Assembly: GCF_001644025.1 (NCBI RefSeq)
Contig: NZ_LUUK01000197.1
Coordinates: 1 to 64,000 of the forward strand
Reading direction: 5' to 3'
From: Methylomonas koyamae
Lineage (GTDB): Bacteria; Pseudomonadota; Gammaproteobacteria; Methylococcales; Methylomonadaceae
DNA: 64,000 nt
The first letter of the stretch is position 1. Each line of letters opens with the position of its first letter. Shown in pieces: positions 30,013 to 33,299 of the stretch. The notes under the pieces were generated by a model that was not told the DNA's origin, searched no databases, and saw only the letters and a list, made by a program, of their open reading frames with translations. A program made the position numbers and the translations under genes.

Positions 30013-31413
30013 ATGCCAGCCCTAGCCTTTGTCGATTTGGAGACCACCGGCGCCTCGCCGCGACAAGACCGGATAACCGAAATCGGTATCGTCTTGGTCG
30101 ATGCCGACGGCGTCCGGGAATGGAGCCAACTGGTCAACCCGCAAATGCGCATTCCGCTGTTCATCGAACAAATGACCGGCATCAGCAACGAGATGGTCTC
30201 AGGCGCGCCGCCGTTCTCCGCGATCGCGCGCCAAGTCTGGGAACTGTTGGAAGATCGAGTATTCGTCGCTCATAACGCCCGTTTCGATTACAGCTTTCTG
30301 AAAAACGAATTCAAGCGCCTGGACCTGCCGTTTCAGCCACAAGTGCTTTGTACGGTCAAATTGTCGCGCGCACTCTATCCCCAATACCACCACCATAATC
30401 TGGACAGTCTGATCGAACGGCATGGCCTGACCGCCAACGATCGGCATCGCGCCTTGGCCGACGCCCAATTGATTCATCAGTTTTGGGAGCATCTGCATCG
30501 CGAATTCCCGGCCGAGCGTTTGACCGACACGGCGGCCGGTTTGCTCGGCAAATCCAGCCTGCCCTCGGGGATCGACCCGCTGTTGACCCACGAATTGCCC
30601 GACGGACCGGGCGTCTATTTGTTTTACGGCGAAAACGATTTGCCGCTCTACATCGGTAAAAGCGTGAATATCCGGCAACGGGTACTCGCCCACTTCGCGG
30701 CCGACCACCGCCACGACAAGGAAATGAATCTTTCGCAACAACTTAGGCGCATAGACTGGCTAGAAACGTCCGGGGAATTGGGCGCGCTGCTGACCGAAGC
30801 CAAGCTAATCAAACAAATGATGCCGGTCTATAACCGCCGTCTGCGCCGCAAGAATGCGCTGGGCGCTTGGCGGCTGGCGCAACACGGCGAACAAGTGCGC
30901 CCCGAACTGGTCTGGGCGGACGCGCTGGATTTCGGCGGTCAGGACAATCTGTACGGCCTGTACCACAGCCAGCGCGACGCCCAAAAAGCCTTGCGCGGTC
31001 TGGCCGAGCAACACGGCCTTTGCCTGAGCGTGCTGGGCCTGGAGAAAACCGTGCCGGGACGACCCTGCTTCGGCTATCAATTGAAAAAATGCGCGGGCGC
31101 CTGCGTCGGGGCCGAACCACCCTTGGCGCATGCCGGCCGCTTATTCGTTGCGATGCAAAAACTTAAATTGGCGACTTGGCCCTATCCCGGCCCGATAGGC
31201 GTTCGGGAAGGCGACGACATGCACGTCATCGACCGCTGGTGCTACCTGGGCAGCGCCCGCACCGAAGCCGAAGTTGCCGAACTGCTCGAGGCCGGCCGGC
31301 CGGCTTTCGATCGCGATACCTATACCTTGCTCGCCAAGATGCTGAAAAAGGCCCGGATTATTCCGCTGGCAAGCCGCTCACCCGCTGGGCTCGATCTGGC
31401 CGACAACGTCTAA
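30013..31413 (+). CDS. DnaQ-like 3'-5' exonuclease fused to GIY-YIG (Cho/UvrC-type) nuclease
   Basis: A 466-residue two-nuclease protein. Residues 4-~165 form a DEDDh exonuclease with FVDLETTG (D8, E10), HNARFDYSFL and NDRHRALADAQL. Residues ~197-275 form a GIY-YIG domain, GPGVYLFYGENDLPLYIGKS. The C-terminal ~190 residues resemble the UvrC/Cho extension, with RPCFGYQLKKCAGACVG. Fusions of this type occur in gammaproteobacteria and are thought to act in DNA repair, incising near lesions and trimming. It lies ~110 bases before lexA on the same strand, consistent with a damage-response neighbourhood. Confidence 0.88.
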   Translation: MPALAFVDLETTGASPRQDRITEIGIVLVDADGVREWSQLVNPQMRIPLFIEQMTGISNEMVSGAPPFSAIARQVWELLEDRVFVAHNARFDYSFLKNEFKRLDLPFQPQVLCTVKLSRALYPQYHHHNLDSLIERHGLTANDRHRALADAQLIHQFWEHLHREFPAERLTDTAAGLLGKSSLPSGIDPLLTHELPDGPGVYLFYGENDLPLYIGKSVNIRQRVLAHFAADHRHDKEMNLSQQLRRIDWLETSGELGALLTEAKLIKQMMPVYNRRLRRKNALGAWRLAQHGEQVRPELVWADALDFGGQDNLYGLYHSQRDAQKALRGLAEQHGLCLSVLGLEKTVPGRPCFGYQLKKCAGACVGAEPPLAHAGRLFVAMQKLKLATWPYPGPIGVREGDDMHVIDRWCYLGSARTEAEVAELLEAGRPAFDRDTYTLLAKMLKKARIIPLASRSPAGLDLADNV

Positions 31414-31467: not shown

Positions 31468-31509
31468 TTGTTCTTGATTTGTTTTGTTTGTATAGTCTTT
31501 CAAAACAAA
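31468..31509 (+). promoter_or_regulatory. lexA promoter with overlapping palindromic operator
   Basis: A good sigma-70 promoter is visible: TTGTTC (31468-31473), a 17-base spacer and TATAGT (31491-31496). The -10 box lies inside a perfect 9-bp inverted repeat, TTTGTTTTG (31478-31486) and CAAAACAAA (31501-31509), with a 14-base spacer. A repressor bound there would block RNA polymerase. The arms differ from the E. coli LexA box (CTGT-N8-ACAG), so autoregulation would use a different operator. Confidence 0.65.
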
Positions 31510-31521
31510 CACAGAACAACC

Positions 31522-32148
31522 ATGACACTGACCCGTAAACAACAAGCGCTTTTCGACTTTCTGCTGCAAAACCAGGACAGCTTCGCCCATCCGCCGACGC
31601 TGGAAGAACTGTGCGCGGCAATGGGCTTGAAATCGCGCGGTTCGCTGCATAGCCAAATCAAGGCCCTGATCGAGGCCAATCTGGTCGAAGCGCCGGAACG
31701 CAAGCAGCGCGGCATCCGCCTGACCGATTACGCCAAATCGTTGGCCGCCCCAACCCAGGATTCCAGTCTGCTGCCGCTAGTCGGCTATATCGCCGCCGGC
31801 CGGCCGATCGAAGCCGTCGAAAACATCGCCTACATGGCGGTGCCCGAACCGCTGAAAACCGACAAACCTTGTTACATCCTGCGGGTCAAGGGCGACTCGA
31901 TGCAGGAAGCCGGCATCTTCGACGGCGACTGGGTCGTGATCGAGCAACGCAGCCACGCCCGCAACGGCGAAATCGTCGTGGCCTTGGTCGACAAGGCCGA
32001 GGCCACCTTGAAATTTATCGAGCAATACCCCCACGAAACCCTGCTGGTTCCCGCCAACTCTCAGATGCAGGCCATGCGTTTTCGGCCCGAGCAAGTGGAG
32101 ATACAAGGCGTACTGGTAGGCCAGATGCGCAGTTACACCCACCCTTAA
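31522..32148 (+). CDS. lexA: LexA-family repressor
   Basis: A 208-residue repressor. The N-terminal winged helix covers ~1-70 (TRKQQALFDFLLQNQ, PPTLEELCAAMGLKSRGSLH, RGIRL). The S24 autoprotease domain has cleavage site A92-G93 (GYIAAGRPIE), nucleophile S116 (KGDSMQEAGI) and general-base K154 (ATLKFIEQ). It should be cleaved on RecA activation and control the SOS response. The recognition helix differs from E. coli LexA, matching the unusual operator upstream. The ATG at 31522 lies 26 bases after the -10 box, so the leader is short. Two small genes follow on the same strand. Confidence 0.92.
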   Translation: MTLTRKQQALFDFLLQNQDSFAHPPTLEELCAAMGLKSRGSLHSQIKALIEANLVEAPERKQRGIRLTDYAKSLAAPTQDSSLLPLVGYIAAGRPIEAVENIAYMAVPEPLKTDKPCYILRVKGDSMQEAGIFDGDWVVIEQRSHARNGEIVVALVDKAEATLKFIEQYPHETLLVPANSQMQAMRFRPEQVEIQGVLVGQMRSYTHP

Positions 32149-32162
32149 AACCGGAGGCAATC

Positions 32163-32312
32163 ATGATTCGTCACACCGTCCATATGCGCGACCAAAAAGC
32201 CAACCAAGTCGCGATGCTGAACCGGGTCGCCCGCCAGTCGGCGATCAATATGCTGGAAGAAATCACGTTGGTGATCGTATTGTGGGGTGTGTTTTTGCTG
32301 GCGACCGGTTGA
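32163..32312 (+). CDS. 49-residue single-span membrane peptide in lexA operon
   Basis: The ATG at 32163 lies 14 bases after the lexA stop, behind GGAGG. The product is 49 residues: a basic, His/Arg-rich N-terminus (MIRHTVHMRDQKANQ), an amphipathic stretch, and a hydrophobic segment at ~31-47 (EITLVIVLWGVFLLATG). It should insert once in the inner membrane. Co-transcription with lexA implies SOS induction. SOS-induced small membrane peptides that stop cell division are known elsewhere (Caulobacter SidA and DidA), but no sequence match is claimed. Confidence 0.6.
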   Translation: MIRHTVHMRDQKANQVAMLNRVARQSAINMLEEITLVIVLWGVFLLATG

Positions 32313-32334: not shown

Positions 32335-32667
32335 ATGTATAAGCTGTGCTTTTTCGTACCCGCCAGCCATCTGGAGCCGGTCAAAAGCGCGGTGTTCGCC
32401 GCCGGCGCCGGCCATGTCGGCGATTACGACCGATGCTGTTGGCAAACCCTAGGCATCGGTCAATTTCGGCCGCTACCGGGTAGCGTCCCCTATTCCGGCC
32501 GAACCGGCGAGGTGACGCAAGTCGAGGAATACAAAGTCGAAATGGTTTGCAGCGCGTCCGCGATACGTCCGGCGCTGACCGCGCTGCTCGCCAGTCACCC
32601 CTACCAGCAACCGGCTTACGAAATCCATCGATTGATCGATCCCGACGCGCTACCCGCAGCCGATTAG
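32335..32667 (+). CDS. YqfO/NIF3 C-terminal-type (PII-like) domain protein
   Basis: A 110-residue single-domain protein (MYKLCFFVPASHLEPVKSAVFAAGAGHVGDY ... YQQPAYEI). It matches the PII-like domain found inside NIF3-family proteins such as YqfO, here standing alone, a common stand-alone form in gammaproteobacteria. The GxGxxGxY-type AGAGHVGDYDRC turn and the HPYQQPAYEI strand are typical. A metal- or nucleotide-binding role is suspected in the family, but unproven. It lies 22 bases after the 49-residue membrane peptide, so the three genes lexA, peptide and this one probably form one transcript. Confidence 0.8.
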   Translation: MYKLCFFVPASHLEPVKSAVFAAGAGHVGDYDRCCWQTLGIGQFRPLPGSVPYSGRTGEVTQVEEYKVEMVCSASAIRPALTALLASHPYQQPAYEIHRLIDPDALPAAD

Positions 32668-33299
32668 GCGACTCGCCAACCAGCCTCGCTCCTGCTCGAG
32701 GCGTCGCCAACGCCGCATTTTTCGATTTTAAAACGGCTTGAAGACGTTGCCGGCGTTTTTTCAGACTTCCGGCACAGCCGCCCGCGCTTCCGCCGACGGT
32801 TATCGTATGCTAAACCGTCCCGACCGGATATAAAAATCTCCGGAAGGCAGTTACCGGAGTCTCGACCACACCCGCGCCACCCTCGGTGGCACGCTCAACA
32901 TCGGCCACGGCGCCGCAGCAACCGGGGGTAGCCCCGCCGAAGCTGCTGGAAGTAGGGTCCGGCGCGTTTTGTACGCCTCCGGCCTGGACTGATATCCAGT
33001 CCATGTCAATGGAAGTATGGTCCAAGCGAATTTTGAGCTGTTATTCGTCGTCAAGCACGCGGATTCCGCGACCTTAAGCTTCGTCCGGCGCGGACTTCGG
33101 CTCCTTCTCGCAAAAGGGTAGCCCAACCAAAACACGAAGATCGTTGCCATCCGTTATGCTGCACGGCGTTAACTCTTTCCCGGCTCAAGCTTCTTGGCCT
33201 TTCAGGCTTTCCGCGGATGGATGGCGCCCCCAGTCCTAACCGAATTGGACACTTCTCCGAGGCGGATCGATAGCGGGGCTATCTGGGGAAAACCGGTCT
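32668..33299. other. Intergenic stretch without a recognisable gene
   Basis: These 632 bases separate the lexA operon (plus) from a lipoprotein gene (minus), so both transcripts end here. Open frames on either strand are short and compositionally unlike the neighbours. A perfect 7-bp inverted repeat (TGGACTG 32985-32991, CAGTCCA 32997-33003) is the only structure noted. The stretch may be decayed coding DNA, but I cannot identify a parent. Confidence 0.45.

Follow-up and report, generated by a model that had tools for sequence, protein, structure and literature searches.

Directly behind lexA, the window (the whole 64,000-nucleotide stretch of Methylomonas koyamae DNA analysed here) encodes a 49-residue peptide that belongs to an undescribed family and that we read, with a probability of about one half, as a LexA-repressed, tail-anchored inner-membrane peptide that is released by DNA damage, binds a membrane-associated partner and delays division. 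In the course of events proposed here, DNA damage would trigger self-cleavage of LexA and release the lexA-peptide-yqfO transcript, and the peptide would insert into the inner membrane through its C-terminal helix. A conserved H-M-x-D-Q segment would then lie at the cytoplasmic face of the membrane, where it would most likely bind a conserved partner associated with the membrane. The leading candidate for this partner is the division machinery, and division would be held back until repair is complete. Delayed division leads among the possible roles because small membrane proteins that are encoded beside lexA or controlled by LexA act in this way elsewhere, and because the Pfam SulA matches sampled here include no true SulA.

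Results

The peptide gene and its locus

The first-pass annotation had placed the start of the reading frame behind a ribosome-binding site shortly after lexA, and this arrangement is confirmed, with a 14-base gap between the end of lexA (32148) and the ATG (32163) that holds the GGAGG at 32153-32157 (Table 1). The encoded peptide, MIRHTVHMRDQKANQVAMLNRVARQSAINMLEEITLVIVLWGVFLLATG, has no match in Pfam (0 families), NCBIfam or the PDB sequences, so that the lack of a match stated in that annotation holds for these curated libraries and for sequences of known structure; single family members gave matches at E 0.003-0.1 in PHROGs, Pfam and NCBIfam, which are isolated and were taken as chance. 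The open-licence literature yielded no paper on a lexA-linked peptide of Methylomonas and none containing the motif strings.

The LexA translation shows the AAG cleavage site and the Ser/Lys catalytic residues. Its gene is preceded by the operator TTGTTCTTGATTTGTTTT-GTTTGTATAGTCTTTC-AAAACAAACACAGAACAA, in which two inverted GTTC-N7-GTTT boxes surround TATAGT (31491-31496), and the double-box arrangement also precedes lexA in relatives; a LexA-type operator at the promoter that is conserved in relatives, the mark of a LexA-regulon member, is thus present. No terminator-like stem-loop was found on the + strand of the lexA-yqfO interval, in a search that returned no more stem-loops than shuffled sequence did. 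The 466-residue product of the gene ahead of lexA combines a DnaQ-type exonuclease with a Cho/UvrC-like nuclease of the GIY-YIG type, and the dnaQ-cho type gene of relatives also occurs in lexA-cho operons.

Table 1. Coordinates of features at the lexA locus of the window
Feature	Position	Strand	Basis or remark
Gene of DnaQ-type exonuclease + Cho/UvrC-like nuclease, upstream of lexA	30013..31413	+	Pfam/NCBIfam
LexA-type double operator, TTGTTCTTGATTTGTTTT ... AAAACAAACACAGAACAA	31468..31519	+	Matched once in the window; shuffled sequence predicts 0
lexA, 208 aa, HTH + S24 peptidase	31522..32148	+	TIGR00498 5.5e-45; Pfam S24 and LexA DNA-binding domains
GGAGG Shine-Dalgarno of the peptide gene	32153..32157	+	Kept in orthologues as AGGAG/GGAGA
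Gene of the 49-aa peptide of the LexA-linked family, predicted to lie in the membrane	32163..32312	+	49 codons; TGA ends at 32312
Codons of the conserved N-terminal motif V6-Q15 (VHMRDQKANQ)	32178..32207	+	50-member alignment
Codons of the predicted C-terminal transmembrane helix core, residues 34-48, ITLVIVLWGVFLLAT	32262..32306	+	Hydropathy; AlphaFold2 helix
Gene of YqfO-like 110-aa protein	32335..32667	+	Name from the first-pass annotation; no Pfam/NCBIfam match
Terminator-like stem-loop 3' of yqfO	32700..32714	+	Stem-loop count no higher than in shuffles

Conservation of the reading frame

Judged by its sequence conservation, the frame at 32163-32312 is a real, conserved gene. Two of the checks proposed with the initial description, retention of the frame in relatives and bias towards synonymous sites, came out in its favour. 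A protein search of 61 relatives recovered the peptide in 33 of the 36 genomes that belong to the same genus, with 45-80% identity in relatives, and purifying selection on the frame is evident from a mean pN of 0.166 and pS of 0.643 (pN/pS 0.26 over 495 pairs, many of them near synonymous saturation, so that individual ratios relative to the window are rough values), with the third codon position being the most variable. A chance open reading frame is ruled out by this presence across the genus, by the pN/pS ratio and by four invariant residues. The three same-genus genomes without the peptide also lack this type of LexA; among the 61 genomes as a whole, peptide and lexA type occur together in 39 and are both missing from 22 (Fisher p ~5e-17, a value that ignores relatedness).

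A conserved N-terminal motif ahead of a predicted membrane helix

The single transmembrane helix and basic N-terminus attributed to the peptide at first reading agree with prediction. Hydropathy peaks at 1.97 (19-residue window) and places the hydrophobic core at residues 34-48, at the C-terminus and with about one residue beyond it, and the AlphaFold2 model is a single continuous helix over residues 2-48 (mean pLDDT 91.7). Because the segment N-terminal to the helix carries five Arg/Lys and three Asp/Glu, the positive-inside rule leads us to expect an N-in orientation. The peptide is thus a predicted small single-pass membrane protein with, by sequence, LexA-type control.

Members of the family share a [V/I]-H-M-[RKQH]-D-Q signature close to the N-terminus, followed by a single C-terminal membrane helix. 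In an alignment of 50 diverse members no variation occurs at H7, M8, D10 and Q11, and hardly any at N14; M8, D10 and Q11 remain invariant once members from four other taxonomic families are added. The conservation, as the alignments indicate, sits in this hydrophilic N-terminal motif and not in the helix. Some variant copies exchange the hydrophobic tail for a basic, amphipathic-looking one (YKKKP...) or end at 34 residues, and they keep the motif, an indication that the functional core lies in the N-terminal segment. These copies without a clear transmembrane tail (34-44 residues) are not predicted by a purely membrane mechanism and count against one.

The same distribution of conservation bears on a quite improbable alternative, a damage-induced peptide of the TisB/DinQ sort that depolarises the membrane and slows metabolism. 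SOS-induced single-helix peptides of such size are indeed known (DinQ, PMC3567139). Against this reading, conservation lies in the hydrophilic N-terminal motif and not in the helix, and a strong, conserved Shine-Dalgarno sequence and placement in the lexA operon fit poorly with a type I toxin whose translation is tightly repressed. Rfam gave no match on either strand at the peptide gene, which counts against an antisense RNA of a described family; one of an undescribed kind may exist.

Of 301 genomes searched in the order, 131 carry the family according to profile searches, spread over 24 of 50 genera, within the taxonomic family of the window and two further ones, and 67 distinct peptides were read out from this order-level search. 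Among 369 genomes of the class, a richer profile gave weak matches in four other taxonomic families; these were recovered from peptide sequence alone, and one lies behind lexA (L201) and the rest behind GTTC-N7-GTTC/T boxes. All five genomes examined of one further order carry the gene. Overall, 80 distinct gene copies were collected from the Methylococcales and several other gammaproteobacterial families. A draw of 398 genomes from the phylum contained no convincing member outside these lineages, its four weak matches being taken as chance since they lie in long frames or contain a stop, and a search of plasmids and phages gave no convincing match either.

LexA-type operators accompany most detached copies

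Directly behind lexA stand 58 of the 80 distinct copies, and the other 22 are detached from it. A strict GTTC-N7-GTTC box precedes 11 of these 22 against a 4.4% background, and a box with one C-to-T change allowed precedes 19 of 22 against ~10%, the background being 250-base stretches drawn at random from these loci. The corresponding binomial values, 5.5e-10 (strict) and 1e-16 (relaxed), are made optimistic by the relatedness of the copies, and grouping the copies into six settings gives ~1e-6. The background stretches themselves include the boxes, and in this respect the contrast is conservative. For three detached copies (L153, L158 and L165), no box was seen in the 250 bases examined. Six Methylomonas genomes are instructive: no lexA precedes the peptide-yqfO pair, and an operator of the kind seen ahead of lexA stands upstream of the peptide, while lexA lies elsewhere with its own box and without a peptide.

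That detached copies retain LexA-type boxes rules out a passive passenger of the lexA transcript and identifies the peptide gene as an independent member of the LexA regulon. SOS induction, which had been suggested from position behind lexA, gains from these boxes and is strongly supported by sequence, and the occurrence of umuDC or dnaQ-cho beside some copies fits the main reading too; with LexA control kept even away from lexA, the peptide is probably made upon DNA damage.

The identity of the neighbours bears on two further readings. According to one, the least probable of the alternatives considered, the peptide would work for the YqfO-like protein or in basic metabolism, with the lexA transcript no more than a convenient place for its gene. 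When the pair parts from lexA in Methylomonas, yqfO stays with the peptide, as this would have it, but it is not beside the peptide in other genera, where the peptide nonetheless lies behind lexA or a LexA-type box. According to the other, which is unlikely though not negligible, the peptide is an SOS accessory, anchored in the membrane, whose task is to regulate a repair or SOS protein (LexA, UmuD/UmuC, Cho or RecA) instead of division. Extra copies in other genera are divergent from umuDC (L151, L156, L159, L168 and L208) or lie ahead of dnaQ-cho (L155, L161 and L165), and the variants without a clear transmembrane tail keep the N-terminal motif as if it bound a soluble partner. Against such an accessory role, the LexA box stays close to constant across differing neighbours, so that shared regulation accounts for adjacency without contact.

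Two further arrangements were observed at these loci. One genome (G298) holds five peptide copies (L200, L207, L208, L209 and L210), of which three follow three separate lexA genes and the other two stand divergent from umuDC. At L075-L080 (G017, G023, G002, G027, G011 and G025), a further lexA of the window type shares an operon with dnaQ-cho that runs divergently from umuDC, with GTTCTATGATTGTTCT upstream where read and no peptide after it.

recA, SulA and a second LexA

In the window's own genome, a second LexA (39% identical; L087, G000:C180:11000-17000, lexA-like frame 1200-1784) has a CTGT...ACAG-type box and is encoded directly before an ImuA-like gene, so that two LexA systems with different operators appear to coexist. 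The Pfam SulA matches sampled in these genomes included no true SulA: at the loci that were read, each match is an ImuA-like gene next to a second LexA.

The Methylomonadaceae recA promoters that could be placed (L169-L188) show no GTTC-type or CTG-N10-CAG box within 260 bases, and recA may therefore lie outside the regulon of this LexA; the placement of the recA start is not reliable for the window's own genome. These box-free recA promoters weigh against the proposed model, as does the presence in the own genome of a full double operator, with both arms, at lexA only. In a separate observation, G043 (99% complete) has no RecA match (PF00154) and G037 a weak one; both retain lexA and the peptide.

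Discussion

A division-delaying inner-membrane peptide would bear on the way in which division is restrained during DNA repair in gammaproteobacteria that have no SulA. A broader proposal, which we advance tentatively and regard as somewhat less probable than its negation, is that the family is a new and widespread gammaproteobacterial SOS checkpoint effector that stands in for SulA alongside GTTC-type LexA. Its active part would be a cytoplasmic motif of ~20 residues (M-[RKQH]-D-Q-[VI]-x-N-R-[VI]-x-x-I-M) that a variable tail brings to the membrane, and its target would be unlike those of SulA, SidA, DidA and YneA. Many SOS genes have no assigned function, and the family offers a handle in its conserved motif, its conserved operator and its copies in culturable methanotrophs, with the gene present in the laboratory Methylomonas strain LW13 and in M. 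methanica; because the LexA box travels with the peptide gene, the SOS assignment is directly testable.

Comparison with known systems

By analogy, and not from any demonstrated sequence kinship with SidA, DidA or SosA, inhibition of division in the manner of SidA and DidA is the most likely role of the peptide. In the lexA-sulA operons of Pseudomonas, the gene of the division inhibitor SulA lies behind lexA, a position that the peptide gene shares, whereas SulA is cytosolic, larger and described by a Pfam model (PF03846) that the peptide does not match. Alpha-proteobacterial LexA boxes are also of the GTTC-N7-GTTC kind. TisB is a type I toxin under antisense RNA control. DinQ and TisB of E. 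coli are SOS-induced single-helix peptides (PMC3567139 for DinQ), as the peptide probably is too, and differ as type I toxins with antisense RNA control, no such RNA family being matched at the peptide gene in Rfam.

SosA of Staphylococcus, a 77-residue LexA-controlled membrane protein encoded beside lexA that blocks division (PMC6851548), is likewise small, under LexA control and the product of a gene adjoining lexA; its gene is divergent from lexA instead of downstream, and it combines an N-terminal helix with an essential extracellular C-terminal part, whereas the peptide has a predicted C-terminal helix and almost nothing beyond. YneA and ChiZ carry LysM in an extracellular C-terminal part after an N-terminal helix (PMC6851548). 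This layout is not that of the peptide, which has about one residue after its hydrophobic core and no match to Pfam LysM; in contrast to YneA, the conserved part of the family precedes the helix and is predicted to be cytoplasmic.

DidA of Caulobacter, a small damage-induced inner-membrane protein that binds FtsN (PMC4211646), is similar in being small, in predicted location and, judged from sequence, probably in damage induction. Both SosA and DidA act via parts beyond the membrane helix, whereas the peptide family is conserved before it. SidA of Caulobacter, with 29 residues, is SOS-induced and targets FtsW (PMC4211646); like the peptide, whose membrane location is predicted, it is a very small inner-membrane protein under LexA control, and it differs from the peptide family in that the latter has a conserved segment of 10-20 residues ahead of the helix.
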